A DNA stretch of 64,000 nucleotides, taken from NCBI GenBank assembly GCA_951217055.1, contig OX578276.1, positions 154,513,482-154,577,481 on the forward strand, read 5' to 3'. Position 1 is the first letter of the stretch; each line of letters begins with the position of its first letter. Under the pieces are notes generated by a model. It ran no database searches. It was given only the letters and a program-made list of their open reading frames with translations, and was not told where the DNA came from. The stretch comes from Gerris lacustris (taxonomy: Eukaryota; Arthropoda; Insecta; Hemiptera; Gerridae). Shown here piece after piece: positions 6,737 through 45,876 of the stretch. A program made the translations under genes and the position numbers.

Positions 6737-6843
6737 AGAAGTGGGATTAGAGCAAGGATTATTGATATTAGTGATTAGTAAATCGTCATTTTTTTAAAAA
6801 ATATCTGTGTTTGTAAAGTTATGTAATCACGTGGTCGCGGAGG

Positions 6844-7989: not shown

Positions 7990-8060
7990 GTAATCCAGCT
8001 CCATCTTACAAAATTGAAGCATCATTTCAGCTCAACACTTTTTAAAAGGTATCCCTAAAT

Positions 8061-11823: not shown

Positions 11824-11827
11824 ATAT

Positions 11828-12705
11828 GTTGTTACTGATATTGAGGGGTTTCAAGTTACACAATTACCTTATGAAGGAGTTGTAGCCTCATCAAGGATGA
11901 AACCTTGGTTAAATAATTCTCATGATTCGGTGTTAACCGATGACCAAGATAATTAAATCATTAATATTTACCTGAATTGATTATTATTGTTTCCCTATTT
12001 TGACTTAATTTTCTCTGATTTTATTTTATTTTACCAATTGTGTCTAATTATTTTTCTGATGATGACTTCTTATGTTACTTAATTTATGGCCTTATGACAA
12101 TTATTGTGAATTTTATAATCTTTAATTTATGTTACTATGGTATGCTTAAATTTTATGTTCTCTTATGTTGTTCACATGATTTATGGTTATGTATTGATAT
12201 CCATTTATGATATTTTAAACTTTTTTATTTATATTACAATTTATGTACTAAATAATTTTGATACATACTTCCTTAATTATACTTATATAAATACATACTT
12301 TAGAATGATCTTACCTTACTTAATGTGATGATTAATTACACTGGACATGATATTGATATAGGTACTGATAATTTATAATTAATGTATACTTACTTATTAT
12401 TGATTATATTAATGATTGCATGTTTCAAACTTAAATAATTAAAGTTGTTAAATATTGAAATTACAATGCTATTACTTGAGAAATGTTTTAAGATAATAAG
12501 TCAATATGGACTAGTAAAATTTAATTTTAATTTTATTTACTATTTTCAGTTCCAATTTTATTTCTTACATGTATCTTTAAATATTGGAAATTTTAATTAT
12601 ATTTTATTTGTCTATTTTCGTTAATTTTATTTAAATTTTGATATTTTTTTTTTTTTACAAATTACTCAATGATTGAGGACAATCATTAGGTCAGAATGGC
12701 CGAAC
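11828..12705 (+). pseudogene. Gypsy integrase C-terminus, 3' untranslated region and polypurine region
   Basis: From 11828 to about 11958 the integrase C-terminal frame interrupted at 9568 resumes and ends at a stop. From 11960 to 12705 the sequence is very AT-rich with no gene I can support; this is the element's 3' region leading to the 3' LTR. Confidence 0.75.
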
Positions 12706-12889
12706 TGTTGTAAATTATACTAAAACCCTCATAACACTTATTTAACTAACTTAACCTGGTTATGTAGAGATCTCTAGAGTATAGTGTGTGTGATGGAGGT
12801 GTGTGTTTGTCTCGTGTCGTTTTTATGTTTTAATGTTTGTTAAATATACCTTTATTGGACTAAATATGTGTTTTATTCTTTACGCAACA
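12706..12889 (+). repeat. 3' LTR of Gypsy element
   Basis: 184 bp beginning TGTTG and ending CAACA, followed by the target duplication ATTT. It is complete, unlike the 5' LTR. Confidence 0.9.
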
Positions 12890-15615: not shown

Positions 15616-16639
15616 ATGTAACTTGATTATTTATAAAATTTGATTAAATCATAGTTAATTAAATTATGTAAATATGGTTTACATCAGCGTTTCCCAACCC
15701 TATGGTTGCGACCCAAATGGGGTCGTGGCCAAATATTTTAGGGTGGCCAAAATTTTTTGTAATTATAGAAAAAAAAAAACAAAAAAAAACATAAAATATA
15801 AATAAGTTCAATAGAATTAAAATTTGTAAACTATTTTAACAAAGTAAAAATAATAAATTGATGTATATAAATTCACAACGATAAAGGAATGTTATTGGGA
15901 AAAGACAAAAACAAATACTTGAATCATTGATAAAAATAAAGTGACAAAATAAGGGGTATTGCAACGAGGAGTAATAGCATTTCCTAAAATCTTGAATTTA
16001 TTTTCATTATACTTCCGACAAAGAGGCATCAGCTCACCAACATAAATTCAGGAAGGCGCTTTATAATATAATAATAAAAATGGGAACCTCGGAACTTTTC
16101 CTCACTTAGAAGGAGGAAGCAGCATTGGGCGTGGTCAAGTGGTCAGTCCTTGGATCAGTCCTTACCTGTAGTGGTGCCACCCGGAAAATCAAAATTTTTC
16201 GCCATCTAGAACCCAGTTTGTTGAGTAAGCAAACATTTTTTAAAAAAACCGCAATAAATCGACAATGATCCTGATCGAGTTGAAATTTGGCACGAATATA
16301 CCTCTGTATGACAAACAAGCCCACCAAATTTCATTTTGATATTGGCCGCTATTTTGAAGTTATCAACTTTTGATTTTTTAAACATTAACGGTTAATAATA
16401 CCGAAAGTATAAATAGGTTTTTGACGTATAGCATATCGTTGGAACCGGAAAAAAATAAGGAACAAATATTAAAAACCCCGATGAAATTCCACTAATTAGT
16501 TTAAAAGGTATAAGCGAATATAATTATTTATTACTGCGATAATTTTGATGACGTCAAAGTTTGTTTACATCTGTCAAAATACCGCCAAGCTTCAAATAAT
16601 TAAATATAAAATCACAGGGAAGTACTTGCGTCCAAGTAC

Positions 16640-16740
16640 TTTTTAGGGTTTTGTAGAAGATTAAGCTTGCCCGTTATGTAATTATGATTTTATTCTTCGA
16701 TCTCAAGGGTCCGGGTTCGATCCCCGGGGGGGTCACAATG
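16640..16740 (+). repeat. tRNA-like B-box segment, shared with 60395-60475
   Basis: GGTCCGGGTTCGATCCCC near 16708-16728 contains a B box and folds into a T-arm-like stem. The 5' acceptor strand of a tRNA cannot be found. The same block and its flanks recur in the opposite orientation at 60395-60520. Confidence 0.5.
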
Positions 16741-17139
16741 TTTTTCATCAGTAATATCGTCTAGATAAATTACATTTTTTCAGAACATTTTCATCGCTCC
16801 ACCATAAGGAATAACCATAAATTATTTCGAAATTTTAGGACCACCCGTTATATAGTGGTTGGGGAGGGGGGACATTTTTAGGGGTATATTTTGACTTATA
16901 AAATTAATAAAGAATGAACAATTTAAAAAAGCGAATATATATTTGAATCCTACTCTTCACCAGCTTTCATATGATACCCAACTCAAAATTTTTAAAAAAT
17001 AAAATTTTTGGCGCACTTCAAATTTTCGCGCCCAAAATTGGCAATTTTTTAAAATTTGGGTTGAACTCCCGGAATTTTCATCGCCCTACAATAAGGCATT
17101 AGCATGAATTATTTCGAAATTTTAGGACCAGCCGAAGTA

Positions 17140-17232
17140 TAGTCAGTGAAGTAGTGTAGTGGTCTCGCTTCGCTCGACAGTAAATGTAATTGCCGCGGTA
17201 AAGAAAAAACTCACTTCACAGCCTAGTAACAT
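17140..17232. repeat. Short fold-back element (copy 2, partial)
   Basis: It shares the CTCGCTTCGCTCGACAGTAA loop and the GGTAAAGAAAAAAC...CACTTCACAG arm with 2885-2995. Confidence 0.6.
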
Positions 17233-18289
17233 AACATTTTTTGAAGAATGATAATAAATCAGTTTGTTCAAAACGGTCACCCATCCAAGTACTGACCACG
17301 CCCAATGCTGCTTCCTCCCAGTTTAGTGGCCTCTGAAGTGAGGAAAAGTTCCGAGGTACCCTGTACCCGATTTTTTTTATTTCATTTATTTAATTATTTG
17401 AATTTTTTCAGTATTTGAACAGATGTAAACAAACTGGCGTTTAACAGAAGTATCGCACTAATTAATAATTATATTCACTTAAACTAATCATTGGAATTTC
17501 ATCTTTTTTTGTATATATTTGATTTGTTCTTAATTTTTACCGGTTCTAACGATATTCTACTAGTTAAAAACGTATTTATACTTTCGGAATTATTAACCGT
17601 TAAAGTTTCAAAAATTGATCATTTCAAAATGGTGGCCAATATCAAAATAATTTTTAGTGGATTTGTTTATCATACAGAGAGAGAAATTTATAACAAATTT
17701 CGACTCGATCGGACCAATTTTCGATTTTTAATATTTTTGACAGCAAACTGGGTTGAAGATGGCGGAAAATGTTGATTTTCTGGGTGGCACAACTAGAAGT
17801 AAGGACTGATTTCTCTGCCAAGTTTCAACTTTTTAGGTAAAATATCCTGGTACGATGATAACTGATAACACACATACTGACGTCATGCTGAAAAAAACCA
17901 CTCAGGAGGTTTTAAAAGCCCCCAAAACAGATAATTCAGTTGAAATCTCGAAAAAAAAAATTGGGTGAAATAAAAACAATACTTTTCCTACCATAGGTGA
18001 GGAAAAGTAATAAACTGTTATAAAATATAAACAAACCAAGCAATGCCATTAACCAAATTAAGATGATGAGTTAGCGTGTTGTTTTATAATCAGTTTACAG
18101 TCCCTCTTTCCTAATTCAGTAACGATTTTAGTAGCATTCAGGCTTTAGGCAGGCGCCAAGTATATCCCTGAAATCTTTAGGGTATGCAATATGCAATACA
18201 CCATATTCCAGATAGGGTCGCGAAAATATAGAGGATACATTTTTAGGGTCGCAGCATCAAAAAGGTCGGGAAACGCTGGTTTACATTAC

Positions 18290-18674: not shown

Positions 18675-19177
18675 AGGCCACCCTACACGATCAATCTGAT
18701 TGTCAATCTGACGTAGGATTGACAATCTGATTGAACGTGTAGGGGCAAGATTGATGGATTGATGAATGTGATTGACGGATTTCCAGATATTCTGAAATCC
18801 GAGCTTCAATCATGTGAGGTGGTGGGGGATTCTGTGAGTGGCGGGGGATTCTGTCAATCTGACTGACCGTGTAGTGGCTTCATCAATCTTTTCTTCAGTC
18901 CAGTGTGTGCCATCATGGAGGACACTTCCTTCCTTAGGTCTCCCGACTCTCCTTTTTTAAGCACGCCCATGATATGGGTATCAAATTGAAGGGTTTGCTA
19001 AGAAGAATACGAATAAAACCTTGTTTTTTAAAAATGTTTTTACTTGAAATTTATTTAGTTAAGATAGAAGATAGTGATTAGAGAAAGATAATTTTAAAAA
19101 GCAAATTATACATTATCAGTGTATAAAAATAAAATTAATCACAAAGCAGGTATAAAAGAATTTAATAAATTCTATTC
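18675..19177. mobile_element. PIF/Harbinger-like MITE, left half
   Basis: It begins AGGCCACCCTACACGATC after a TTA (18672-18674) and matches, inverted, the right half ending at 33479 before a TTA (33480-33482). A 3-bp TTA duplication is the Harbinger signature. The interior is full of alternating copies of ATTGTCAATCTGATTG. The element was about 880 bp before the Polinton-like palindrome inserted into it. Confidence 0.75.
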
Positions 19178-19777
19178 AGTAGAGATAAAAAGGGGCACCT
19201 GTCCCAATCGCTAATGTGCACCTCAACTAAGGTCAATGACCGAAGCCCCTCTCGACCATCTACAACCCCATATCGCCTCTGCTCTCTGCATCCTCAAGGT
19301 CACTGACCGGACTACTTTTCGTTCACGTATAGGTCCATGCTTTTGTTCTCTCCCCCCCCCCCCCCCCACACAGATATTATTCCCAGAGTCTGTCAAGGTC
19401 ACTTCTCGTGCATTTATTCGATTTCGAGCTCGAGCTTGGTGGCGATAACGTTCTCCTGATTGGACTTTGGAAAAATGGAGGGCGGGCTCTAATTAATCAT
19501 GATAGGTCTTGTTATAAATATTGTGTTGATCTGGAGCTATGAGCACCCCCATATCGCCTCTGCTCTTTGACCCAGATTATAAATTAGTCCCCCTCCCCCA
19601 GGATCTCTCCCCTAGTTGCTGTAATAAAGCGTAATATTTAGAAAGATAATGTTTAATCTTGTTTCTTTTTTGATAGAGCCCCACACTCGCTCTATCATGT
19701 GATGACCAACCATTTTTTTTGTCACCTCCATTGTTTTCCCACCCAATTAGTGAAATATAACTCTACGAATGCAGTTG

Positions 19778-19906
19778 GGTTTGCGGGACGCTATGCCACG
19801 CCAGGGACCCTGCATTGGTAAAGTTATTATTTAAAAAAAGAAGTATATTGAATATGCGTCAACAAATGTTGTTCGGTTTGCGGGACGCTATGCCACGCCA
19901 GGGACC
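19778..19906. repeat. Subterminal paired direct repeats, left arm
   Basis: Two copies of a 32-bp sequence (beginning GGTTTGCGGGACGCTATGCC on this strand), about 97 bp apart. They are flanked by inverted CTACGAATG / CATTCGTAG. It is the mirror image of 32368-32496. Arrays like this near the end of a linear replicon suggest a protein-binding or origin region, which is an inference. Confidence 0.65.
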
Positions 19907-20096
19907 TATTACATTCGTAGAAACATTTTTTATAATTATTATTTTTTTTTTGTTTTACAAATATCAATTTCCAATCCATACAAGTTATGAGCACTTGAAT
20001 TAAAATCATATTTTAAAAACTTTTTATAGCAGTACTGAGACAAGTGAAGCAATAAACATTGGTAGGAAAATAATTTTGACTAAAATATTAAATGTG

Positions 20097-20102
20097 TTTA
20101 TT
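20097..20102 (-). terminator. Poly(A) signal of left-arm polymerase gene
   Basis: AATAAA on the minus strand begins 13 nt beyond the polymerase stop codon. It mirrors 32172-32177. Confidence 0.55.
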
Positions 20103-20114
20103 TGTTAATTAATA

Positions 20115-23100
20115 TCAAATAGCGCTTTCATTATAGCCATGCGCTTTTGTTGAAATTCCATCGCTCATGATAATTCTTTTGTCATCGAACGGAGAAAGAG
20201 AAACTTTATTCACTAAGTATGTTTGCAAGTCATGGTTTTTGGATCTGATTACATTCATTTTGGTAAAAATAGGTTCTTCAGTTTTTAAAACATTAACAAA
20301 ATCTTCAAATGTTATATATCTCTTAACTGCGCTTCGAGCAATCCCTTTAACCTTTTTACATTCTCCATCGCCTTCAGTATCGATTGCATACATTTTAGCC
20401 CTTAACCCAATAAATCTTTTGATAATTTTTCCACCTACTTCATCTTTAAACAATCCCAATACGCCTTTGTTAACAACAGGAAGGCCAACTTCAGGACTGA
20501 GATTTGACGTGTCTAAATAATCCAAGCGATTTAGTCTGTCCTTAAAAACATTTTCAGTCGTTATTTTATAGATGAATGAATCAGTGTCTGTATACATGAG
20601 GGTTAAACGCTCAGGGCCATAATATGGAAGCATGACATCATAATGGTAGTTGTACATCAATTGCTTAGAAACCTCGAGTACACATAGTCCAACAAAGACA
20701 GGTTTGTTGTATACAATGCGTTCTTTAGCGAGATGAATCGCTGCCAAGTTCGGTCCATAAATCGTTCTGTCAAGGAAATTTGGTTTAGCAACCAGTTTCT
20801 CAAGCACCTTCTCATTGGTAACTAAACGTATGTCCATTCTGTTTTTTATCCTTTCTAGAGTTTTTCCGTAGCAGCTATTATTCATGCCTTTAAACAGATC
20901 TTTTTCAAATGAATTTGCAGCCTGTTGACGTAAATTATTATTTAAATCAATGTATGATTTTAACCAACAAGATTGTTTGAACTTCAATGCGCGATGAATC
21001 TTAGTCAGTTTTAAACCATGGCTGAGTGCATTTTTAAGAGACATGTAGTGTACAACATATTGCTTTCGACCCCCTAGATGTGGAATCAGTTTTTTATGTT
21101 TTGATCCGGGTGGACAAATATTTTCAGGCAGGAACGGTAACATATTATGAAGAGGGAATAAATGTTGAGGATAATCAATGTCTACTTCCAGGATATAGCC
21201 ATGATCGTCGTCACTTCTCAGTTTGTCTAAATCTATAGATGAAGGGTCATCTACCCACTGAAAGCCTCCAAATGGCAATGGTTGACTCATAGCCCACCCA
21301 TACTGATTATTGCAGTCCTCATAGGTAATGAAAGATGATGGCTTCCCCGGATCATAGTCGGGCATATATTTGTTGTTTGCATAAGCATATCTGTGCGATA
21401 CTTGACAAAGTCCTCCTCGAATACCATTTTCAACCATCAAAATTTGATCGTAATCTTGAAGAAGTTCCAACTCTACTCTGGTGTATAACAACATGGCATC
21501 CCAAGTCATACCTGGGCAAGTATAGTAATGTGCTGGATCAATCCGGTGAGTTTTCATTATACTGTCTCTGAACGATTCAAACACATCACACAGCAATAAA
21601 ACATCTGATGTGAGGTACAACTTTTCATAATCTGACAGAGTTTTTAGTTTAAAAGTATTCCACACGGTTATCGCGTGAGAATAATCTTCATCACTAATAT
21701 CACTACCTGACAATTTACTAAAGAAAGCAGATTTTGGAGGTAAAGCTATTTCGTTTAGTTTATCCCAGTTGTCAATGTAATCATATGGAAAAACTCCTTT
21801 TCTAGTCATAAGATGTGATTTTTCTGTTCCAAAATACTTTTCAGTTTCCGGGTGGCTAGGTAAGTTTTTAACTAATTTTTCCAAACTCGATGACATGAAT
21901 CTATAGCTATCGATAAATCGAAGTGAGACTTTTCCCACATGTTTGCTGAATGATACGTACTTTTCAGAGTTATTTGGAATCACATCAACTCTTTCACTGT
22001 CACAACCAAGCTGTTTAACAATGAAGTGTGAATCATAGCCGGACAGATTGTGTAGAATCACTGGTATATAGTTGGGGGTTTTACACTTTAGATTACAACT
22101 ATTATGAAGTACTTGACGAAATTTTCCGGTGAGATGTGAATGATCTAAAGTTTTCCAGTCTTCATCACTAAATGGTTTTTTGCACAGCTCACAAATATTT
22201 GTCTCTTCGCAGTATAGTCTTTCTTCTTCTGACAGAGGTTTCATTGGTTCATTTCTAGAGTACAAATTGTTAATTTCCTTAGCAATTTCAATCAGTGTTT
22301 GCATGAACCTTTCCGCAGCATCTACACCTTCATAAATGATTGGCGAGGTTGGTAAATTTAAGTTTAATGTTTTAATATCCTCGGAAATTTTGACAAACAA
22401 TCCAAAGCTCATCGGTTGATGATTCTGGTAAGGTATTGTAAATGAGTGATCGTTGTTTAGATCGCATCCTTCGATTGGCAAGAGAATGCTTTCAAAATCT
22501 GCATATATCACTATTGGTAATTTGATCAGTTTGTTGTAAGAGTTAAATTTTAAGATGGGATTTTTCGAAGGCATCTCAATGACGGTTGGTTTTTCCATTT
22601 GACAAAGTCGCTTGTGATAATTTAATTTTACAATTGCATCCTGTCCATACTGTCCATCGAAGTATGTGAAACATCTTTTACATATTTGAATTGAATCTTT
22701 ATGATTAGTCAACTGCGGACGCACTAATTTATTAAAGTCTTTTATCCACACATAATGCATTTTTGATTCATTATTTAAAACCAACAAATCACGATGGTCA
22801 GTCTTTTCTTCTTTCACAACTTTTAAAGGATATATATTGTGTTTCTGATCAAGTCCGAACACGTTAATGGAAATTTTATTAACTCTCTCGAATATTTTTA
22901 TATCACTCAAAGGTGTAGGAAATGATATATTAGTGAAATCATAGTGATTTTCGAGATTATTGTAACTATTCGGTCTATAAGTATGATGTTCATTATTTAG
23001 CTTTGATAATATACTGTATAGAAAGCATTTATCATCAGTATTTTGAACATTAACGCAAGCCTTTCGATTACTGATTTTATCAGGCAGCGGTATATAACTG

Positions 23101-23801
23101 CTTCCTCTTAGCGGGTTGTACTTATTAATCCTTAAGCGCACACCGTCGACCGCAAGCAAGCTCCATCCACTGCCTTTAAGTTGAGATTCTTCCATTTCAT
23201 CCTTCAGTTTTTTAAATTTGTCTTTTATGATTTCCTCTAGATCTGAAGTTTGAAATATAGCACGATTCCTTGTTTTGAATGATTCATTTCTCGTTTCGCC
23301 AAGAGAGTTTTTAAACGTACACTCAGCTACAATGTTAACTTTAACAGATCTGTGCTCTTGTAAAGAGCTTTTAATGGTTCTTATAAGTTTTTCCTTCACA
23401 TCCAGCAGGTAACAGTCTAAGTCAAAACATTTATCTGATCTAAACAGGAAAGATTTCAACCGGCTATTAAAAGCTGTTTCATAAGGTGCGATTCCCTCGG
23501 CATCGGGGAGAAGAGCCAAAAGTTGATTCTTTGTAGGTTCAATATGTAATCGTTTCTCAGCTACTTTTCCACACACTTCTTCGTGCCTTCTTCCATTATA
23601 TGAGTTGGTAAAGCAATGTCCACACACTTTACAAATGAAATTTTCGCCACATGATGCCTCGTGTCGCTTGTGAAGATACTGGCGCTTAAATTGTTTCCCA
23701 CAGCGATTGCATTTATGTTCTATGACGTGAGCTATAGAACGATGAACGCTTCTAGCCTTGCTCGTCTCAAACTCCTTCATGCATTTGTCGCAAGGATACA
23801 T
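20115..23801 (-). CDS. Protein-primed-type family B DNA polymerase (left arm copy)
   Basis: Intact 1228-codon gene, Polinton-type DNA polymerase, which would replicate a linear element genome. Three zinc fingers lie at residues 4-25 (C-x2-C-x12-H-x4-H), 31-51 and 57-77 (both C-x2-C-x12-H-x3-C). Next is a Polinton-typical N-terminal region, and about residues 536-572 hold an HNH-like zinc segment (CELCKKPF...DHSHLTGKFR). Proofreading exonuclease motifs are YADFES (~435), LHNLSGYDSHF (~582) and YLTSDVLLL (~728). Polymerase motifs are A DCNNQYG (~828), B NNSCYGKT (~973) and C YTDTDS (~1069). All catalytic acids are present. The start is the first ATG after the promoter. The protein is identical to the right-arm copy. 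It is transcribed outward, away from the palindrome centre. Confidence 0.93.
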   Translation of the reverse strand: MYPCDKCMKEFETSKARSVHRSIAHVIEHKCNRCGKQFKRQYLHKRHEASCGENFICKVCGHCFTNSYNGRRHEEVCGKVAEKRLHIEPTKNQLLALLPDAEGIAPYETAFNSRLKSFLFRSDKCFDLDCYLLDVKEKLIRTIKSSLQEHRSVKVNIVAECTFKNSLGETRNESFKTRNRAIFQTSDLEEIIKDKFKKLKDEMEESQLKGSGWSLLAVDGVRLRINKYNPLRGSSYIPLPDKISNRKACVNVQNTDDKCFLYSILSKLNNEHHTYRPNSYNNLENHYDFTNISFPTPLSDIKIFERVNKISINVFGLDQKHNIYPLKVVKEEKTDHRDLLVLNNESKMHYVWIKDFNKLVRPQLTNHKDSIQICKRCFTYFDGQYGQDAIVKLNYHKRLCQMEKPTVIEMPSKNPILKFNSYNKLIKLPIVIYADFESILLPIEGCDLNNDHSFTIPYQNHQPMSFGLFVKISEDIKTLNLNLPTSPIIYEGVDAAERFMQTLIEIAKEINNLYSRNEPMKPLSEEERLYCEETNICELCKKPFSDEDWKTLDHSHLTGKFRQVLHNSCNLKCKTPNYIPVILHNLSGYDSHFIVKQLGCDSERVDVIPNNSEKYVSFSKHVGKVSLRFIDSYRFMSSSLEKLVKNLPSHPETEKYFGTEKSHLMTRKGVFPYDYIDNWDKLNEIALPPKSAFFSKLSGSDISDEDYSHAITVWNTFKLKTLSDYEKLYLTSDVLLLCDVFESFRDSIMKTHRIDPAHYYTCPGMTWDAMLLYTRVELELLQDYDQILMVENGIRGGLCQVSHRYAYANNKYMPDYDPGKPSSFITYEDCNNQYGWAMSQPLPFGGFQWVDDPSSIDLDKLRSDDDHGYILEVDIDYPQHLFPLHNMLPFLPENICPPGSKHKKLIPHLGGRKQYVVHYMSLKNALSHGLKLTKIHRALKFKQSCWLKSYIDLNNNLRQQAANSFEKDLFKGMNNSCYGKTLERIKNRMDIRLVTNEKVLEKLVAKPNFLDRTIYGPNLAAIHLAKERIVYNKPVFVGLCVLEVSKQLMYNYHYDVMLPYYGPERLTLMYTDTDSFIYKITTENVFKDRLNRLDYLDTSNLSPEVGLPVVNKGVLGLFKDEVGGKIIKRFIGLRAKMYAIDTEGDGECKKVKGIARSAVKRYITFEDFVNVLKTEEPIFTKMNVIRSKNHDLQTYLVNKVSLSPFDDKRIIMSDGISTKAHGYNESAI

Positions 23802-23842
23802 CTTACAAATATGAATAGTAGGTTACTCACGTAAATCCTCTT

Positions 23843-23906
23843 GATCCTTCCGCTGCTACAGCTTGAGCACGACTGAATAGAACTGGGTTGCAAGCGTGCT
23901 TATATA
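23843..23906 (-). promoter_or_regulatory. TATA/Inr/DPE core promoter of left-arm polymerase
   Basis: Minus strand: TATATAAG at 23906-23899, initiator TCAGTC with A+1 at 23874 (TATA starts at -32), and GGATC matching the downstream promoter element at +28 to +32. It mirrors 28368-28431. Confidence 0.7.
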
Positions 23907-24779
23907 GACTATTAACAGGCTATCCAATCGAACAAATAAATTATTTACAGTTCTACCAATAGTTAATATTTTTTTGTTGAGAAATAACACTCCACACAAG
24001 AGAATAATAAAGGATTTAAGATCCGCACTCTTCGCGTTCAAATGAGCAAATGAGAGTTTTCCCACGCTCCTATATTTATATAACTCACTGTTCACTAATA
24101 ATAATATTATTTTAATTCAAACTACACTGTCGAGACTTTACAAACTTTAATACCGAATAGTTTTTGTAACTATTAAATGACTGATAGCAAAGAGCAAGCC
24201 TAACCAGGGTCTAGAAGGAGCCTGGAGATAGCACTCCTTCTAGTCGAAGTCCCCCGCTTTGTTGACGCAGTGGTGCTGCAATGGGAGGCAGGACAATCCG
24301 TACACCTCCTATCCCAACACTAAAGCCTCTTGAGCCAACTAGGCTGGGAGAGTCCTTTCACTGAGTATTGACACCCAGTAAGCGAAACTCCCGCCTGCAG
24401 GCGTATTTATTCGGTTTCCCCGAGAGAGGAGCATGCGCATTGTAATATCAAGGTCAAAAGACAGAGGAAATTGTCGTATAGTTATGTAATCAAGATCATA
24501 ATTGAAACATCACCCACAGAAATTGCAATACATGATCACTCATTCAGAATTAGTATGTCTGTGGTTTACTCACTTTGCAGACAAACCCTACAAAATTCAG
24601 CGTGTTCAAAGAGTAAAAAAGAAACTTGATTTGAATTTCTATGATTATCAGAATAGAATCTACGGTTATTATATTAGAAAAGTGTACACATATATGCAAA
24701 TTTTCATTAAGAGGAGAATTTTTTACTATTCAAAGCTTAGTCAGTCAGTATCGTCCATATGTTAGGATTCCTAAGGACA

Positions 24780-25760
24780 TAAAAAGGCCATTACTTTTTA
24801 AAGCTCAATCATTTAAGACCCCACACGAATTTATGGGGGGGGGGGGGGAGGGGGATGTCAGGGGGTAATAAAAACTTGAGGTTTATACACACTTGAAAGA
24901 AAAATATGGCTCTATTTTTAATATTAATATCTCATAATCCAATGATTTACTTTAAAATTGATCAAAATTCGTATTTTAACCAATATTTCCCTTCTAAGGG
25001 CATAAAAGGGCATGTATCTCGGAAACGGATAGAGATATCGAAAAAATAACAAAATTTCGATGAGCACTTCGTGCCAATCGAGCCCACATTACTTGTTAAA
25101 GCTCAATCATTTAAGACCCCACACGAATTTATGGGAGGGGGGGGGGGATGTCAGGGGGTAATAAAAACTTGAGGTTTATACACACTTGAAAGAAAAATAT
25201 GGCTCTATTTTTAATATTAATATCTCATAATCCAATGATTTACTTTAAAATTGATCAAAATTCGTATTTTAACCAATATTTCCCTTCTAAGGGCATAAAA
25301 GGGCATGTATCTCGGAAACGGATAGAGATATCGAAAAAATAACAAAATTACCCACATTACTTTTTAAAGCTCAATCATTTAAGACCCCACACGAATTTAT
25401 GGGGGGGGGGGGTTGTCAGAGGGGTGATAAAATACTCGGAACGGACAGAGATATCGAAAAAATAACAAAATTTTGTGGGGTCGAGCCCCAATTATGTTTG
25501 GAAGCTGAATTATTTACCACCCATTCGATTTTTTTATGGGCAGGGGGGGGGGGGGAGTTACCAAATTTCGAAGATATCATCCTAGTTTGCCCATGGCTTG
25601 CGCTATTTAAGTCCGATTTCTCTTTAAGTCTCATTTCAAGACCCATTATCCTTACAAAATCAACATTTTACGAGTTATACCCTTGGAACGAGGGGGGGGG
25701 GAGAAGCCAAATATTGACTTTTTGACCCTACGAACTGCACATTTAAGATAAATTGGGCAG
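24780..25760. repeat. Tandem repeats with long G-runs, left arm centre
   Basis: Units of about 270-300 bp each contain CCCACACGAATTTATGGG followed by a run of 9-15 G (anchors at 24833, 25131 and 25399). A more diverged unit lies near 25500-25560 and another G-run at about 25693. The right arm has matching units but different spacing. Confidence 0.85.
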
Positions 25761-26058
25761 TTTCACGAGCTATTTTACCCATTTCCTACCGATTTCGTCT
25801 ATTACACAGAATTTCCCCATTCTAGTCTACAATTTTTTTAACAAATTCCCAATTATAAGGCTATAAATCCCAATGAATCGCACATATCTACGCGATTTAT
25901 GTCCGATTTCTCTCATTTCAACACCCATTTTCCCTAGTGATGACCCCTTTAGGGCGTCTTTCAGTCTTTTTTTTTTTTTTTGCCATTTTGGTCCCACAAC
26001 CGGGCCCGGGCCCCACGCCCCACCGCTAGCGCCCTGCGCCCCCCGTTGTCCTCTTGCG

Positions 26059-26092
26059 CAAACTATAAATTGTAACTTTGTGTAAGCGGAAT
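26059..26092. other. Unpaired spacer at the palindrome axis
   Basis: These are the only 34 bp of the element without an inverted partner (AT-rich, containing AACTATAAATTGTAAC). The arms join on both sides through TTGCG / CGCAA with two mismatches, then a GC-rich stem (26020-26050 with 26101-26131). Confidence 0.8.
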
Positions 26093-26449
26093 CGCAAGGC
26101 GACAACGGGGGGTGCAGGGCGCTAGCGGTGGGGCGTGGGGCCCGGGCCCGGTTGTGGGACCAAAATGGCAAAAAAAAAAATAGACTGAAAGACGCCCTAA
26201 AGGGGTCATCACTAGGGAAAATGGGTGTTGAAATGAGAGAAATCGGACATAAATCGCGTAGATATGTGCGATTCATTGGGATTTATAGCCTTATAATTGG
26301 GAATTTGTTAAAAAAATTGTAGACTAGAATGGGGAAATTCTGTGTAATAGACGAAATCGGTAGGAAATGGGTAAAATAGCTCGTGAAACTGCCCAATTTA
26401 TCTTAAATGTGCAGTTCGTAGGGTCAAAAAGTCAATATTTGGCTTCTCC

Positions 26450-27490
26450 CCCCCCCCCCCCCCCCCCTCGTTCCAAGGGTATAACTCGTAAAATGTTGAT
26501 TTTGTAAGGATAATGGGTCTTGAAATGAGACTTAAAGAGAAATCGGACTTAAATAGCGCAAGCCATGGGCAAACTAGGATGATATCTTCGAAATTTGGTA
26601 ACTCCCCCCCCCCCCCCTGCCCATAAAAAAATCGAGTGGGTGGTAAATAATTCAGCTTCCAAACATAATTGGGGCTCGACCCCACAAAATGTTGTTATTT
26701 TTTCGATATCTCTGTCCGTTCCGAGTATTTTATCACCCCTCTGACAACCCCCCCCCCCCCCACCCATAAATTCGTGTGGGGTCTTAAATGATTGAGCTTT
26801 AAAAAGTAATGTGGGCTCGATTGGCACGAAGTGCTTATCGAAATTTTGTTATTTTTTCGATATCTCTATCCGTTTCTGAGATACATGCCCTTTTATGCCC
26901 TTAGAAGGGAAATATTGGTTAAAATACGAATTTTGATCAATTTTAAAGTAAATCATTGGATTATGAGATATTAATATTAAAAATAGAGCCATATTTTTCT
27001 TTCAAGTGTGTATAAACCTCAAGTTTTTATTACCCCCTGACATCCCCCTCCCCCCCCCCCCCCATAAATTCGTGTGGGGTCTTAAATGATTGAGCTTTAA
27101 AAAGTAATGTGGGCTCGATTGGCACGAAGTGCTTATCGAAATTTTGTTATTTTTTCGATATCTCTATCCGTTTCCGAGATACATGGCCTTTTATGCCCTT
27201 AGAAGGGAAATATTGGTTAAAATACGAATTTTGATCAATTTTAAAGTAAATCATTGGATTATGAGATATTAATATTGAAAATAGAGCCATATTTTTCTTT
27301 CAAGTGTGTATAAGCCTCAAGTTTTTATTACCCCCCTGACATCCCCCTTACCCCCCCCCCCCCCATAAATTCGTGTGGGGTCTTAAATGATTAAGCTTTA
27401 AAAAGTAATGTGGGCTCGATTGGCACGAAGTGCTTATCGAAATTTTGTTATTTTTTTGATATGTCTGACCGTTTCCAAGATATCGGCCTT
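26450..27490. repeat. Tandem repeats with long C-runs, right arm centre
   Basis: Mirror of the left-arm repeats; anchors of CCCATAAATTCGTGTGGGG at 26763, 27061 and 27363 (spacing about 300 bp). Relative to the left arm it holds an extra block near 27395-27485 and a longer junction near 26815-26845, so the two arms are physically distinct sequences. Confidence 0.85.
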
Positions 27491-28367
27491 TTTATGTCCT
27501 TAGGAATCCTAACATATGGACGATACTGACTGACTAAGCTTTGAATAGTAAAAAATTCTCCTCTTAATGAAAATTTGCATATATGTGTACACTTTTCTAA
27601 TATAATAACCGTAGATTCTATTCTGATAATCATAGAAATTCAAATCAAGTTTCTTTTTTACTCTTTGAACACGCTGAATTTTGTAGGGTTTGTCTGCAAA
27701 GTGAGTAAACCACAGACATACTAATTCTGAATGAGTGATCATGTATTGCAATTTCTGTGGGTGATGTTTCAATTATGATCTTGATTACATAACTATACGA
27801 CAATTTCCTCTGTCTTTTGACCTTGATATTACAATGCGCATGCTCCTCTCTCGGGGAAACCGAATAAATACGCCTGCAGGCGGGAGTTTCGCTTACTGGG
27901 TGTCAATACTCAGTGAAAGGACTCTCCCAGCCTAGTTGGCTCAAGAGGCTTTAGTGTTGGGATAGGAGGTGTACGGATTGTCCTGCCTCCCATTGCAGCA
28001 CCACTGCGTCAACAAAGCGGGGGACTTCGACTAGAAGGAGTGCTATCTCCAGGCTCCTTCTAGACCCTGGTTAGGCTTGCTCTTTGCTATCAGTCATTTA
28101 ATAGTTACAAAAACTATTCGGTATTAAAGTTTGTAAAGTCTCGACAGTGTAGTTTGAATTAAAATAATATTATTATTAGTGAACAGTGAGTTATATAAAT
28201 ATAGGAGCGTGGGAAAACTCTCATTTGCTCATTTGAACGCGAAGAGTGCGGATCTTAAATCCTTTATTATTCTCTTGTGTGGAGTGTTATTTCTCAACAA
28301 AAAAATATTAACTATTGGTAGAACTGTAAATAATTTATTTGTTCGATTGGATAGCCTGTTAATAGTC

Positions 28368-28431
28368 TATATAAGCACGCTTGCAACCCAGTTCTATTCA
28401 GTCGTGCTCAAGCTGTAGCAGCGGAAGGATC
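28368..28431 (+). promoter_or_regulatory. TATA/Inr/DPE core promoter of right-arm polymerase
   Basis: TATATAAG at 28368-28375, initiator TCAGTC at 28398-28403 with A+1 at 28400, and GGATC at 28427-28431 exactly at +28 to +32. All three arthropod core elements are in register, and the polymerase ATG follows 73 bp downstream of +1. A GTGAGT donor-like sequence lies at 28444, but the space to the ATG is too short for an intron. Confidence 0.7.
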
Positions 28432-28472
28432 AAGAGGATTTACGTGAGTAACCTACTATTCATATTTGTAAG

Positions 28473-31400
28473 ATGTATCCTTGCGACAAATGCATGAAGG
28501 AGTTTGAGACGAGCAAGGCTAGAAGCGTTCATCGTTCTATAGCTCACGTCATAGAACATAAATGCAATCGCTGTGGGAAACAATTTAAGCGCCAGTATCT
28601 TCACAAGCGACACGAGGCATCATGTGGCGAAAATTTCATTTGTAAAGTGTGTGGACATTGCTTTACCAACTCATATAATGGAAGAAGGCACGAAGAAGTG
28701 TGTGGAAAAGTAGCTGAGAAACGATTACATATTGAACCTACAAAGAATCAACTTTTGGCTCTTCTCCCCGATGCCGAGGGAATCGCACCTTATGAAACAG
28801 CTTTTAATAGCCGGTTGAAATCTTTCCTGTTTAGATCAGATAAATGTTTTGACTTAGACTGTTACCTGCTGGATGTGAAGGAAAAACTTATAAGAACCAT
28901 TAAAAGCTCTTTACAAGAGCACAGATCTGTTAAAGTTAACATTGTAGCTGAGTGTACGTTTAAAAACTCTCTTGGCGAAACGAGAAATGAATCATTCAAA
29001 ACAAGGAATCGTGCTATATTTCAAACTTCAGATCTAGAGGAAATCATAAAAGACAAATTTAAAAAACTGAAGGATGAAATGGAAGAATCTCAACTTAAAG
29101 GCAGTGGATGGAGCTTGCTTGCGGTCGACGGTGTGCGCTTAAGGATTAATAAGTACAACCCGCTAAGAGGAAGCAGTTATATACCGCTGCCTGATAAAAT
29201 CAGTAATCGAAAGGCTTGCGTTAATGTTCAAAATACTGATGATAAATGCTTTCTATACAGTATATTATCAAAGCTAAATAATGAACATCATACTTATAGA
29301 CCGAATAGTTACAATAATCTCGAAAATCACTATGATTTCACTAATATATCATTTCCTACACCTTTGAGTGATATAAAAATATTCGAGAGAGTTAATAAAA
29401 TTTCCATTAACGTGTTCGGACTTGATCAGAAACACAATATATATCCTTTAAAAGTTGTGAAAGAAGAAAAGACTGACCATCGTGATTTGTTGGTTTTAAA
29501 TAATGAATCAAAAATGCATTATGTGTGGATAAAAGACTTTAATAAATTAGTGCGTCCGCAGTTGACTAATCATAAAGATTCAATTCAAATATGTAAAAGA
29601 TGTTTCACATACTTCGATGGACAGTATGGACAGGATGCAATTGTAAAATTAAATTATCACAAGCGACTTTGTCAAATGGAAAAACCAACCGTCATTGAGA
29701 TGCCTTCGAAAAATCCCATCTTAAAATTTAACTCTTACAACAAACTGATCAAATTACCAATAGTGATATATGCAGATTTTGAAAGCATTCTCTTGCCAAT
29801 CGAAGGATGCGATCTAAACAACGATCACTCATTTACAATACCTTACCAGAATCATCAACCGATGAGCTTTGGATTGTTTGTCAAAATTTCCGAGGATATT
29901 AAAACATTAAACTTAAATTTACCAACCTCGCCAATCATTTATGAAGGTGTAGATGCTGCGGAAAGGTTCATGCAAACACTGATTGAAATTGCTAAGGAAA
30001 TTAACAATTTGTACTCTAGAAATGAACCAATGAAACCTCTGTCAGAAGAAGAAAGACTATACTGCGAAGAGACAAATATTTGTGAGCTGTGCAAAAAACC
30101 ATTTAGTGATGAAGACTGGAAAACTTTAGATCATTCACATCTCACCGGAAAATTTCGTCAAGTACTTCATAATAGTTGTAATCTAAAGTGTAAAACCCCC
30201 AACTATATACCAGTGATTCTACACAATCTGTCCGGCTATGATTCACACTTCATTGTTAAACAGCTTGGTTGTGACAGTGAAAGAGTTGATGTGATTCCAA
30301 ATAACTCTGAAAAGTACGTATCATTCAGCAAACATGTGGGAAAAGTCTCACTTCGATTTATCGATAGCTATAGATTCATGTCATCGAGTTTGGAAAAATT
30401 AGTTAAAAACTTACCTAGCCACCCGGAAACTGAAAAGTATTTTGGAACAGAAAAATCACATCTTATGACTAGAAAAGGAGTTTTTCCATATGATTACATT
30501 GACAACTGGGATAAACTAAACGAAATAGCTTTACCTCCAAAATCTGCTTTCTTTAGTAAATTGTCAGGTAGTGATATTAGTGATGAAGATTATTCTCACG
30601 CGATAACCGTGTGGAATACTTTTAAACTAAAAACTCTGTCAGATTATGAAAAGTTGTACCTCACATCAGATGTTTTATTGCTGTGTGATGTGTTTGAATC
30701 GTTCAGAGACAGTATAATGAAAACTCACCGGATTGATCCAGCACATTACTATACTTGCCCAGGTATGACTTGGGATGCCATGTTGTTATACACCAGAGTA
30801 GAGTTGGAACTTCTTCAAGATTACGATCAAATTTTGATGGTTGAAAATGGTATTCGAGGAGGACTTTGTCAAGTATCGCACAGATATGCTTATGCAAACA
30901 ACAAATATATGCCCGACTATGATCCGGGGAAGCCATCATCTTTCATTACCTATGAGGACTGCAATAATCAGTATGGGTGGGCTATGAGTCAACCATTGCC
31001 ATTTGGAGGCTTTCAGTGGGTAGATGACCCTTCATCTATAGATTTAGACAAACTGAGAAGTGACGACGATCATGGCTATATCCTGGAAGTAGACATTGAT
31101 TATCCTCAACATTTATTCCCTCTTCATAATATGTTACCGTTCCTGCCTGAAAATATTTGTCCACCCGGATCAAAACATAAAAAACTGATTCCACATCTAG
31201 GGGGTCGAAAGCAATATGTTGTACACTACATGTCTCTTAAAAATGCACTCAGCCATGGTTTAAAACTGACTAAGATTCATCGCGCATTGAAGTTCAAACA
31301 ATCTTGTTGGTTAAAATCATACATTGATTTAAATAATAATTTACGTCAACAGGCTGCAAATTCATTTGAAAAAGATCTGTTTAAAGGCATGAATAATAGC

Positions 31401-32159
31401 TGCTACGGAAAAACTCTAGAAAGGATAAAAAACAGAATGGACATACGTTTAGTTACCAATGAGAAGGTGCTTGAGAAACTGGTTGCTAAACCAAATTTCC
31501 TTGACAGAACGATTTATGGACCGAACTTGGCAGCGATTCATCTCGCTAAAGAACGCATTGTATACAACAAACCTGTCTTTGTTGGACTATGTGTACTCGA
31601 GGTTTCTAAGCAATTGATGTACAACTACCATTATGATGTCATGCTTCCATATTATGGCCCTGAGCGTTTAACCCTCATGTATACAGACACTGATTCATTC
31701 ATCTATAAAATAACGACTGAAAATGTTTTTAAGGACAGACTAAATCGCTTGGATTATTTAGACACGTCAAATCTCAGTCCTGAAGTTGGCCTTCCTGTTG
31801 TTAACAAAGGCGTATTGGGATTGTTTAAAGATGAAGTAGGTGGAAAAATTATCAAAAGATTTATTGGGTTAAGGGCTAAAATGTATGCAATCGATACTGA
31901 AGGCGATGGAGAATGTAAAAAGGTTAAAGGGATTGCTCGAAGCGCAGTTAAGAGATATATAACATTTGAAGATTTTGTTAATGTTTTAAAAACTGAAGAA
32001 CCTATTTTTACCAAAATGAATGTAATCAGATCCAAAAACCATGACTTGCAAACATACTTAGTGAATAAAGTTTCTCTTTCTCCGTTCGATGACAAAAGAA
32101 TTATCATGAGCGATGGAATTTCAACAAAAGCGCATGGCTATAATGAAAGCGCTATTTGA
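28473..32159 (+). CDS. Protein-primed-type family B DNA polymerase (right arm copy)
   Basis: Second intact copy of the 1228-residue Polinton-type polymerase, the mirror image of 20115-23801, with the same protein sequence throughout. The same three N-terminal zinc fingers, HNH-like segment, three exonuclease motifs and motifs A, B and C are present, so both copies keep full coding capacity. The usual Polinton polymerase is about 1000-1200 residues, so this is full length. It is preceded by a promoter with TATA, initiator and DPE in register, and followed by AATAAA 13 nt after the stop. Complete protein identity of the two copies argues for a very recent origin of the palindrome or continuing conversion between arms. 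Confidence 0.93.
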   Translation: MYPCDKCMKEFETSKARSVHRSIAHVIEHKCNRCGKQFKRQYLHKRHEASCGENFICKVCGHCFTNSYNGRRHEEVCGKVAEKRLHIEPTKNQLLALLPDAEGIAPYETAFNSRLKSFLFRSDKCFDLDCYLLDVKEKLIRTIKSSLQEHRSVKVNIVAECTFKNSLGETRNESFKTRNRAIFQTSDLEEIIKDKFKKLKDEMEESQLKGSGWSLLAVDGVRLRINKYNPLRGSSYIPLPDKISNRKACVNVQNTDDKCFLYSILSKLNNEHHTYRPNSYNNLENHYDFTNISFPTPLSDIKIFERVNKISINVFGLDQKHNIYPLKVVKEEKTDHRDLLVLNNESKMHYVWIKDFNKLVRPQLTNHKDSIQICKRCFTYFDGQYGQDAIVKLNYHKRLCQMEKPTVIEMPSKNPILKFNSYNKLIKLPIVIYADFESILLPIEGCDLNNDHSFTIPYQNHQPMSFGLFVKISEDIKTLNLNLPTSPIIYEGVDAAERFMQTLIEIAKEINNLYSRNEPMKPLSEEERLYCEETNICELCKKPFSDEDWKTLDHSHLTGKFRQVLHNSCNLKCKTPNYIPVILHNLSGYDSHFIVKQLGCDSERVDVIPNNSEKYVSFSKHVGKVSLRFIDSYRFMSSSLEKLVKNLPSHPETEKYFGTEKSHLMTRKGVFPYDYIDNWDKLNEIALPPKSAFFSKLSGSDISDEDYSHAITVWNTFKLKTLSDYEKLYLTSDVLLLCDVFESFRDSIMKTHRIDPAHYYTCPGMTWDAMLLYTRVELELLQDYDQILMVENGIRGGLCQVSHRYAYANNKYMPDYDPGKPSSFITYEDCNNQYGWAMSQPLPFGGFQWVDDPSSIDLDKLRSDDDHGYILEVDIDYPQHLFPLHNMLPFLPENICPPGSKHKKLIPHLGGRKQYVVHYMSLKNALSHGLKLTKIHRALKFKQSCWLKSYIDLNNNLRQQAANSFEKDLFKGMNNSCYGKTLERIKNRMDIRLVTNEKVLEKLVAKPNFLDRTIYGPNLAAIHLAKERIVYNKPVFVGLCVLEVSKQLMYNYHYDVMLPYYGPERLTLMYTDTDSFIYKITTENVFKDRLNRLDYLDTSNLSPEVGLPVVNKGVLGLFKDEVGGKIIKRFIGLRAKMYAIDTEGDGECKKVKGIARSAVKRYITFEDFVNVLKTEEPIFTKMNVIRSKNHDLQTYLVNKVSLSPFDDKRIIMSDGISTKAHGYNESAI

Positions 32160-32171
32160 TATTAATTAACA

Positions 32172-32177
32172 AATAAA
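32172..32177 (+). terminator. Poly(A) signal of right-arm polymerase gene
   Basis: AATAAA 13 nt after the stop codon, in AT-rich sequence. Confidence 0.55.
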
Positions 32178-32367
32178 CACATTTAATATTTTAGTCAAAA
32201 TTATTTTCCTACCAATGTTTATTGCTTCACTTGTCTCAGTACTGCTATAAAAAGTTTTTAAAATATGATTTTAATTTAAGTGCTCATAACTTGTATGGAT
32301 TGGAAATTGATATTTGTAAAACAAAAAAAAAATAATAATTATAAAAAATGTTTCTACGAATGTAATA

Positions 32368-32496
32368 GGTCCCTGGCGTGGCATAGCGTCCCGCAAACCG
32401 AACAACATTTGATGACGCATATTCAATATACTTCTTTTTTTAAATAATAACTTTACCAATGCAGGGTCCCTGGCGTGGCATAGCGTCCCGCAAACC
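32368..32496. repeat. Subterminal paired direct repeats, right arm
   Basis: Two 32-bp copies starting GGTCCCTGGCGTGGCATAGC, at 32368-32399 and 32465-32496, enclosed by CTACGAATG (32354) and CATTCGTAG (32503). Further out are a GATAGAGC/GCTCTATC hairpin (32578-32602) and two copies of GCAGAGGCGATATGGGG (about 32710 and 32990). Confidence 0.65.
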
Positions 32497-33099
32497 CAAC
32501 TGCATTCGTAGAGTTATATTTCACTAATTGGGTGGGAAAACAATGGAGGTGACAAAAAAAATGGTTGGTCATCACATGATAGAGCGAGTGTGGGGCTCTA
32601 TCAAAAAAGAAACAAGATTAAACATTATCTTTCTAAATATTACGCTTTATTACAGCAACTAGGGGAGAGATCCTGGGGGAGGGGGACTAATTTATAATCT
32701 GGGTCAAAGAGCAGAGGCGATATGGGGGTGCTCATAGCTCCAGATCAACACAATATTTATAACAAGACCTATCATGATTAATTAGAGCCCGCCCTCCATT
32801 TTTCCAAAGTCCAATCAGGAGAACGTTATCGCCACCAAGCTCGAGCTCGAAATCGAATAAATGCACGAGAAGTGACCTTGACAGACTCTGGGAATAATAT
32901 CTGTGTGGGGGGGGGGGGGGGAGAACAAAAGCATGGACCTATACGTGAACGAAAAGTAGTCCGGTCAGTGACCTTGAGGATGCAGAGAGCAGAGGCGATA
33001 TGGGGTTGTAGATGGTCGAGAGGGGCTTCGGTCATTGACCTTAGTTGAGGTGCACATTAGCGATTGGGACAGGTGCCCCTTTTTATCTCTACTCTATTC

Positions 33100-39876: not shown

Positions 39877-39988
39877 TGTAGTGTCAGTTCTATTTATAAC
39901 TTGTTTTGTTTTGAATCTGTCAAATGTCAAATAAATATTAAGAACTCGTTAGTTCGTTTATGTGATACATGGTCTTATTGTTCCTTCA
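39877..39988 (+). repeat. 5' LTR of CsRn1-type element
   Basis: It begins TGTAGTGTCAG and ends TGTTCCTTCA, and contains AATAAA. It matches the 3' LTR apart from one T. Confidence 0.92.
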
Positions 39989-39989
39989 T

Positions 39990-40000
39990 TGGTGACCCCG
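39990..40000 (+). promoter_or_regulatory. Primer-binding site (tRNA-Trp type)
   Basis: TGGTGACCCCG directly follows the 5' LTR and fits a tRNA-Trp primer, the primer used by the CsRn1 clade. Confidence 0.8.
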
Positions 40001-40013
40001 AACTAAGGACATC

Positions 40014-40817
40014 ATGTCTACAGTTAATGAAACTTCGTCGGAAGAACATTCGAGTGCAACGCATACATCTGAAATTTCCCGGGTTGCAATCAAACTTCCT
40101 CCGCTCTGGAAAGCTGACCCGGAGATGTGGTTCGTAAGCGTCGAGGCCCAATTTGCTGCTGCCAGAATTACAACAGAGGATACTCGATATAACTACATTC
40201 TGGCCGCTCTCGACGGCGATATAATCTCAAGACTCCGGGATGTTATCCTCAGTGTGCCGTTAAGTAACAAATACACATATTTAAAGCAAGCTTAAATTAA
40301 GCGCTTCGCCCTGTCCGAAGAAGATCGATTGGCCCGGCTACTAAAAGGGGTAGACCTTGGTGACAGAAAGCCCTCAGAGCTGCTTATACAGCTGCAGGGT
40401 TTAGCGGGTGGTACAACTGTAGATTCTAGGGTTTTAAGACAATTGTGGCTGCGGGCGCTGCCAAATAATGCCCGTACTATACTGGCCGCAAGCAAGGAAC
40501 CACTGGAATCACTAGCTACCATCGCCGATGCAGTAGTCGCTACTCTAGAGCCGGAGATATGCAGCACTAGCGCAGAATCTTTACAAGCTTCAGTGGCACC
40601 AAACCAAGATGACATCGCCCGATTGCAAAGCCAGGTCTGCGAGCTTACCAGGGCAGTAGAGACATTATCTAGAAATTCTAGTTATCGGTCGCGTAAGGAC
40701 GTAAGGGATTCTGGTAGACTGGGGCAGAAAAAAGTAACCTACTGCTGGTTCCACAAAAGGTTTGGTAAGACAGCCCGCCGGTGCCAAAGCCCTTGCTCAT
40801 ACAACGCGGGAAACTAG
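40014..40817 (+). pseudogene. CsRn1-type gag, one in-frame stop
   Basis: The gag frame starts at the ATG at 40014. It holds a capsid-like region beginning KLPPLWKADPEMWFVSVEAQ, the usual opening of CsRn1-group gag, and then IKRFALSEEDRLARLL. A single TAA at 40293-40295 interrupts it; the frame is otherwise continuous to 40817. The C-terminus has a single Cys/His cluster (YCWFHKRFGKTARRCQSPC), as expected for this clade, which has an atypical zinc finger. The end overlaps the protease frame by about 37 nt in the -1 register, suggesting frameshift expression in the parent element. Confidence 0.8.
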
Positions 40818-41165
40818 CGGACCTGCATGTCAACGCGACAGGCATAGCGGGTCAATCTACCAGTCGCTTGTTTGTCAATGACAAAAAGTCAGGAGTTAGT
40901 TTTCTTATCGACACGGGTGCGGATGTTTCGGTTTTGCCACCAACACAATCCGACCTGCAGCGACAATCGAGTACTCGGCTAGTAGCCGCTAACGGGCAAT
41001 AGGATGGTTAAGCTCGACTGTCGCTGCAGTCTCAAGGCCCATTATTGGAGCAGATCTTCTCAATTTTTTTGGACTCTTAGTTGATATAAAGGGAAAACGA
41101 CTTATTAACTACACATTCTTACGCTCCTTACCATGCTGTGAAACTTTATCTTCGGAGCCTAGTGT
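40781..41165 (+). pseudogene. CsRn1-type protease region, frameshifted
   Basis: Retroviral-type aspartic protease with active site FLIDTGADVSVLPP (about 40905-40945). The frame ends at 41002. The downstream part, including the [13 protein letters not shown] segment at about 41047-41085 that matches the protease C-terminal motif, is in the frame used by RT, so an indel lies between. Confidence 0.8.
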
Positions 41166-41169
41166 TAGC

Positions 41170-43740: not shown

Positions 43741-43767
43741 TATCGTTGGCACTAGGGGGGGGAGCTC

Positions 43768-43880
43768 TGTAGTGTCAGTTCTATTTATAACTTGTTTTGT
43801 TTTGAATCTGTCAAATGTCAAATAAATATTAAGAACTCGTTAGTTCGTTTTATGTGATACATGGTCTTATTGTTCCTTCA
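43768..43880 (+). repeat. 3' LTR of CsRn1-type element
   Basis: 113 bp, follows the polypurine tract at about 43751-43763, ends TTCCTTCA. Confidence 0.92.
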
Positions 43881-45815: not shown

Positions 45816-45816
45816 G

Positions 45817-45817
<1 letters not shown>

Positions 45818-45875
<58 letters not shown>
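45818..45875. repeat. (TA)n microsatellite at Penelope 5' edge
   Basis: 58 bp of alternating TA, directly abutting the 5' end of the Penelope-like coding region. Confidence 0.95.

Positions 45876-45876
<1 letters not shown>

Follow-up and report, generated by a model that had tools for sequence, protein, structure and literature searches.

Polintons, or Mavericks, are defined by a polymerase and an integrase, and they usually have capsid genes as well. Here we describe a block of DNA that shares features with them and is arranged as a palindrome. It lies at positions 19178 to 33093 of a 64,000-nucleotide (nt) stretch of the Gerris lacustris assembly GCA_951217055.1 (contig OX578276.1, positions 154,513,482 to 154,577,481), which we call the window. 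We suggest, with a probability of about 0.57, that this block is an inserted Polinton-derived mobile element, and that its replication is likely protein-primed and passes through a fold-back hairpin of about 7 kb, in which one arm would correct or rewrite the other.

Intact vertebrate Mavericks have terminal inverted repeats of 46 to 1,447 bp and, as their general layout, two opposed gene modules, according to the accessible part of PMC8097293. A first-pass annotation of this DNA had stated that Polinton genes lie in a single orientation, which is therefore not a general rule. Like Polintons and Mavericks (PMC8097293, same part), the element has a family-B DNA polymerase of predicted protein-primed type, AGT/ACT ends, and 6-bp target duplications. 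Unlike them, it has no recognisable integrase, capsid, ATPase, or protease gene. No rve domain of a retroviral-type integrase was found in it, and only its polymerase frames reach 200 amino acids (aa). Capsid and packaging ATPase genes do exist elsewhere in the genome. The inverted ends, with arms of 6.9 to 7.0 kb, make up almost the whole element, and they exceed the vertebrate range of tens to about 1,450 bp given in that part of PMC8097293.

Two groups of viruses have related polymerases. The element polymerase is 44% identical to PolB of a Ladona dragonfly adintovirus, which is among the relatives listed by our protein search, and its structure model resembles adintovirus PolB. Unlike adintoviruses, the element had no capsid or other virion gene recognised in domain scans. 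A viral-model match and the accessible part of PMC11071308 also relate the polymerase to that of bidnaviruses. Unlike in the Bidnaviridae, domain scans recognised no parvovirus-type structural or NS genes beside it. Bidnaviruses are not known to occur as integrated palindromes.

The best published parallels are a hairpin plasmid that comes from pGKL1, a linear plasmid of yeast, and the plasmid pELF1. The former, from Kikuchi et al. in 1985, is reportedly a deleted protein-primed replicon that occurs as a hairpin and as an inverted dimer. It is reportedly a cytoplasmic, non-integrated yeast plasmid, whereas the element is seen integrated. On pELF1, a single molecule has what are presumed to be one hairpin end and one terminal-protein end (PMC6863802, accessible part), and the proposed hairpin form of the element would have the same end arrangement. 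However, pELF1 is an unrelated bacterial plasmid of 143 kb (same part of PMC6863802). No palindromic or polymerase-only Polinton was found among the open PubMed Central matches listed, a search with subscription papers and repeat databases outside its scope, and none is described in the accessible parts of PMC12721341, PMC8097293, PMC6863802, PMC11071308, PMC4443254, and PMC6431247. Because of that scope, we regard the novelty of the element as provisional.

The palindrome is near-perfect and 13.9 kb long. Inverted-repeat and open reading frame (ORF) analysis confirmed the layout given in the first-pass annotation, with a 34-bp spacer and one intact 1228-residue family-B polymerase in each arm. 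These are the only two ORFs of at least 200 aa inside the element, and the window contains no N bases. The parts are as follows.

19172 to 19177, no strand: left target-site duplication CTATTC, the same six bases as at 33094 to 33099
19178 to 26058, plus strand: left arm, from the AGT end to the palindrome centre, by arm alignment
20115 to 23801, minus strand: left intact 1228-aa family-B DNA polymerase, predicted protein-primed; protein identical to the right copy
24785 to 25550, no strand: left-arm tandem repeats of the 298-bp type, with G runs (repeat families D2 and D3)
25990 to 26165, no strand: GC-rich stem of about 60 bp, with loop, at the palindrome centre; axis intact at 14 places in the genome
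26059 to 26092, no strand: asymmetric 34-nt spacer (loop) at the axis, by arm alignment and axis comparison
26093 to 33093, plus strand: right arm, from the centre to the ACT end, by arm alignment
26724 to 27620, no strand: right-arm tandem repeats of the 298-bp type (repeat family D1)
28473 to 32159, plus strand: right intact 1228-aa family-B DNA polymerase, predicted protein-primed, by ORF, relatives, and structure model
33094 to 33099, no strand: right target-site duplication CTATTC, read at the right end

By alignment, the arms are 6898 and 7018 nt long. Their outer 5.6 kb are 99.9% alike, with 2 substitutions and one 3-bp indel in 5612 nt. The longest inverted arms (19353-24802 and 27472-32921) cover 5450 nt and are 100% complementary after rounding; the outermost inverted segment (19178-19364 and 32907-33093) is at 99%, and the centre consists of 25971-26058 and 26093-26180 with 34 nt between the halves. 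The inner 1.3 kb or so, with its 298-bp tandem repeats and G/C runs, has 9 indels and 15 substitutions, and 13 further substitutions are the asymmetric spacer itself. A Pfam scan of all 18 other stop-to-stop frames of at least 60 codons in the right arm gave no match (one hit, at E 0.1, fell far short of its cut-off), and we rejected a hidden integrase in small frames on this result. A complete Polinton with long ends was likewise rejected, because no second domain was found.

The element has the ends AGTAGAG...CTCTACT, exactly at 19178 and 33093. It is flanked on both sides by the direct repeat CTATTC, which is absent from the first-pass annotation. A direct duplication in unrelated flanks points to insertion of the palindrome as one unit, and an assembly fold-back is very unlikely on this account. 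A perfect 6-bp duplication stands beside AGT/ACT at 9 of 12 end pairs, including all five polymerase-bearing palindromes. Besides CTATTC in the window, the duplicated bases are AATGTA (C1:91.7), ATCGAT (C1:122), CAATAA (C11:27), TATAAA (C2:18.7), GTACGG (C2:113), TCTGTA (C1:24), TATATA (C3:43, within a TA repeat and hence not diagnostic), and CCCCTT at the single-orientation relative C1:4.14. The end pair at C1:98.6 was not counted as an element, since its flanks are inverted copies of each other; the neighbouring DNA there (C1:98606950-98617890) is itself inverted-duplicated around the two element ends.

We searched the assembly (937 Mb, 69 contigs) for further copies, and the counts from these genome searches are lower bounds. 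The protein search scored 38 of 566 candidates; searches with the 979 bases upstream of the polymerase and with the 231-bp axis scored all of theirs (38 of 38 and 16 of 16). The polymerase protein had at least 39 matches, including five inverted pairs, in the window and at C1:91.74, C1:122.34, C11:27.02, and C2:18.70. The stretches read at the four sites outside the window give the same palindrome. The axis recurs intact 14 times and as a half twice (C3:13.66 and C9:0.58). Arms in opposite orientation lie on both sides of 11 of the 14 intact axes, at 10 insertion sites (the window and nine others). The remaining three are on the small contigs C55 and C64 or have no arm match (C9:0.585).

Mirrored-arm sites beyond the five polymerase pairs are C1:12.12, C1:127.26, C3:43.37, C6:70.94, and C9:6.77. 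Two pieces read at C3:43.37 have arms 99.5% alike and only a polymerase remnant; the other four sites, known from matches alone, gave no polymerase match in the protein search. The family includes polymerase-less and very small members: a 1.45-kb palindrome with the family ends at C1:24.26, whose arms differ by about 3%, and a deleted 5.4-kb member sharing these ends at C2:113.67. Gap-free palindromes occur at five sites (window, C1:122, C11:27, C2:18.7, and C3:43). C1:91.7 was counted once, because a 200-N gap separates its apparent two side-by-side palindromes. The first-pass annotation had proposed, as its own check, a search for further palindromic copies with such ends elsewhere, and mirrored arms were found at nine sites besides the window. 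Its broader claim, that the element is Polinton-derived, palindromic as a unit, limited to the polymerase, and mobile in that form, is supported by this recurrence and by the duplications. Direct duplication, distinct flanks, and gap-free recurrence led us to reject a chance repeat or an assembly fold-back.

The loop and stem at the centre can be aligned base by base in the seven axes read, at six sites. DNA folding gives a stem of about 60 bp, with a z of -18. At C2:18.7 the loop lies in reversed orientation; since a palindrome can be inserted in either direction, this carries no information. Since the centre sequence is common to the insertions, the palindrome seems to be inherited and not remade each time. 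The one-off snap-back that had been proposed to produce the window copy was thus not borne out, as the centre is conserved between lineages. The arms have also been equalised repeatedly. A snap-back may have given rise to the palindrome originally.

We then compared arms within and between insertions. In three 1.2-kb pieces (12, 13, and 13 rows, including one single-armed outgroup that differs more), the arms of one palindromic insertion differ at 0 to 1 sites, and different palindromic insertions at 0 to 138 sites. Over the longest outer alignments, the arms mismatch at 2 of 5612 positions in the window, at 1/5229, 1/5653, 1/5878, and 3/5805 in the other four polymerase-bearing copies, and at 12/5646 in C3:43. 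Those four copies differ from the window at 20, 262, 293, and 295 sites, and the same base is present on both arms at 19, 262, 292, and 295 of them, respectively. Such symmetric changes speak against independent inheritance of the arms, because new changes would then sit on one arm only. The arms thus appear to have been made equal again and again.

The differences are also unevenly placed along the arms. Between C1:122 and C11 there are 7 differences ahead of arm position 4369 and 41 past it, and 47 of these 48 are symmetric. Compared with the window, C1:122 is about 0.87-0.91 identical up to arm position ~4370 and abruptly 0.995 from there towards the axis; in C11 and C2 the rise comes later and is less sharp (~4600-4720). 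Recombination thus seems to have swapped the axis side between polymerase lineages, and every swap is found on the two arms alike. This speaks against new snap-backs from a one-armed parent and favours a stage in which one arm serves as template for the other or corrects it.

Within the polymerase, Pfam recognised only a recombination-endonuclease-VII-like stretch (residues 524-571). The protein search found 653 relatives, of which the best 120 were listed. Most of these are unnamed, and the named ones are from insects and spiders, by organism name; the best named matches listed are from Halyomorpha halys (51%) and then Rhodnius prolixus, both true bugs. We aligned 44 sequences, the window's and 43 relatives. 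Invariant or nearly so are D435 and E437, which we take to be exonuclease positions; D829, K971, N975, D1072, and D1074, presumably polymerase positions; and C259 and H349, which we assume to be possible OTU-protease positions. A structure model of residues 1-1196 has a predicted local distance difference test (pLDDT) score of 87. Its best PDB match is phi29 DNA polymerase, including the complex with terminal protein, and the best viral-model matches are densovirus-labelled and adintovirus polymerases. We therefore predict a polymerase of the protein-primed type. A scan for free viral relatives with the polymerase protein found none, and one with the 44-sequence alignment found 2 loci, neither of them palindromic.

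The polymerase frame has no internal stops in any of the nine gene copies compared, from seven sites. The ratio of nonsynonymous to synonymous substitution rates (dN/dS) is about 0.11 between two palindromic lineages (dS 0.24-0.28) and 0.12-0.13 against the single-armed copy C9:6.30. Within lineages it is 0.15-0.30, on few changes. As judged by these ratios, the polymerase is under purifying selection.

Our model starts from what is established here: the palindrome, its ends and duplication, its recurrence, the shared centre, the equal arms, a selected polymerase, and no recognisable integrase in the element. We suggest that this polymerase would start synthesis by priming at the two identical AGT ends, and that a single strand would thereby be displaced. 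Being self-complementary, this strand would fold at once into a hairpin of about 7 kb, closed by the conserved stem of about 60 bp and the 34-nt loop. In this form the arms may become identical, either through mismatch repair or because synthesis continues round the loop; the product would then be inserted by an integrase from ordinary Polintons of the genome. More tentatively, with odds a little short of even, the element may be a self-complementary polymerase-only replicon switching between a palindrome inserted in the genome and a free hairpin, protein-capped at one end and with a conserved hairpin telomere at the other. In this scenario the centre would be an exchangeable module, and any polymerase lineage that recombines onto it would turn palindromic in a single step, with both arms changed together; the symmetric mosaics point this way.

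Relatives in the same genome bear on the integrase step. Seven polymerase copies are 72-73% identical, and the three of them that were read have no inverted arms. Upstream of these three, in the same direction, 225-240 codons weakly match a retroviral-type integrase and chromodomain, below the curated cut-offs, and repeat-rich sequence precedes this frame. The right end of these relatives is AGTAGGGTATAAAAG..., in a style like the ends of the palindromes. That integrase has at least 150 matches, with 150 of 1241 candidates scored. Open frames of 313-341 codons are present in many of these, and one match is close to a distant polymerase fragment. There are also at least 95 matches to capsid genes (95 of 290 candidates scored). 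Together, the capsid and integrase matches amount to a heavy Polinton/adintovirus load, with several groups of near-identical scores. Since the genome is rich in Polintons, it could supply an integrase in trans, which we consider plausible.

A number of observations weigh against the hairpin model. The searches of the genome found no full-length Polinton with the window's own ends, and there is no duplication at 3 of the 12 end pairs (C2:12.25, C1:98.6, and C11:48.8). Six one-arm matches lie on large contigs. Two of them (C1:153 and C3:13.66) end at a 200-N gap, which at C3:13.66 lies inside the axis loop, and the other four (C10:28.78, C5:4.89, C9:2.19, and C1:160.9), one-armed by search matches, may be single-armed or cut by a gap. 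In all, 200-N gaps occur at four related loci (C1:153, C3:13.66, C1:91.7, and C2:113). The axis-proximal 1.3 kb or so of the window arms is less equal than the remainder. C11 and C1:122 have zero differences in one 1.2-kb piece, so arm equality is informative only where copies differ. The hairpin stage is our inference, the element being seen in its integrated form alone, and equal arms could also arise by chromosomal gene conversion.

Elements may thus insert as palindromes and have their arms kept equal by ordinary gene conversion between chromosomal inverted repeats, with no replication hairpin. Long chromosomal palindromes do convert, and conversion would account for the equal arms at every polymerase-bearing site read. 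However, the arms drift in other members, both at C3:43 and in the 1.45-kb palindrome at C1:24.26. An almost identical symmetric mosaic is present in C11 and C2, which lie at different sites; the simplest reading is that the symmetry arose before insertion. We consider this explanation rather unlikely.

Alternatively, each palindrome may be remade from a single-armed parent by a fresh snap-back at each mobilisation. Arms are equal within copies and unequal between them, single-armed polymerase relatives exist, four one-armed family matches lie on large contigs (by search matches alone), and a second Polinton family here has inverted capsid-integrase halves. Yet the loop and stem are the same in seven axes and recur at 14 places, whereas independent snap-backs should give different centres, and the two one-armed family copies whose sequence was read both end at an assembly gap, which for one of them falls exactly within the axis loop. 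Repeated snap-back is improbable. Still more so is a defective Polinton with very long inverted ends that was moved passively, its palindrome having no role in replication. The Polinton-like ends, duplication, and polymerase would fit, as would the existence of non-autonomous members, but a stop-free polymerase in 9 of 9 copies under purifying selection, and a centre conserved while the flanking sequence recombines, do not. Finally, a read folded back on itself and assembled as a palindrome is scarcely credible: such artefacts exist (PMC12870357, accessible part) and four related loci have 200-N gaps, but the unrelated flanks carry a direct duplication, the arms have private differences, and five palindromes are gap-free.

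If the hairpin model holds, the displaced strand would need no second start to become double-stranded. The family seems to have spread although the polymerase is all that it retains, relying on symmetry so that one end sequence serves twice, and it would be a natural counterpart of self-complementary genomes. Arm-versus-arm divergence may provide a built-in clock that dates each insertion, as long terminal repeats (LTRs) do. With this family one can also ask whether a free hairpin form occurs in the life cycle of Polintons.

The genome also contains inverted duplications of a Polinton capsid gene (double jelly-roll), integrase, and neighbouring genes, at C7:9907500-9917400, C1:145991500-146003500, and C1:97090166-97099176 (coordinates only). 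The arms are 100% alike over 4376 bp at C7 and 99.85% over 4588 bp at C1:145.99. Both of these copies have an ATPase in the unique spacer, and no polymerase was seen in them. The limits of the C1:145.99 copy show neither AGT nor a duplication. By coordinates, single-orientation copies with a polymerase lie at C1:1.88, C3:58.15, C4:17.48, and C1:12.59. We do not claim a split system of a polymerase palindrome and a capsid-integrase palindrome, because the copies at C7:9.91, C1:97.09, and C1:145.99 go with the family whose polymerase is at 53%, and those at C7 and C1:145.99 have a longer unique spacer. The motif GGTTTGCGGGACGCTATGCCACGCCAGGGACC occurs twice per arm of the window element (19754-19906 and 32368-32520), and a slightly altered form of it is also present where the C1:145.99 inverted copy has its outer limit.

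Elsewhere in the window, positions 44001-46000 have a strong strand skew of G over C (0.38), and two minus-strand frames there (269 and 300 aa) gave no Pfam or NCBIfam match. A probable LTR-type retroelement occupies 39877-43880, with 113-bp direct repeats 99% alike around reverse transcriptase, RNase H, and integrase frames. Another likely LTR element lies at 6582-12860, with 155-bp direct repeats, 99% alike, around an integrase frame at 8106-9599. Positions 16154-17810 form a fold-back structure with arms about 75% alike, and related pieces are present at 60.1-63.6 kb.

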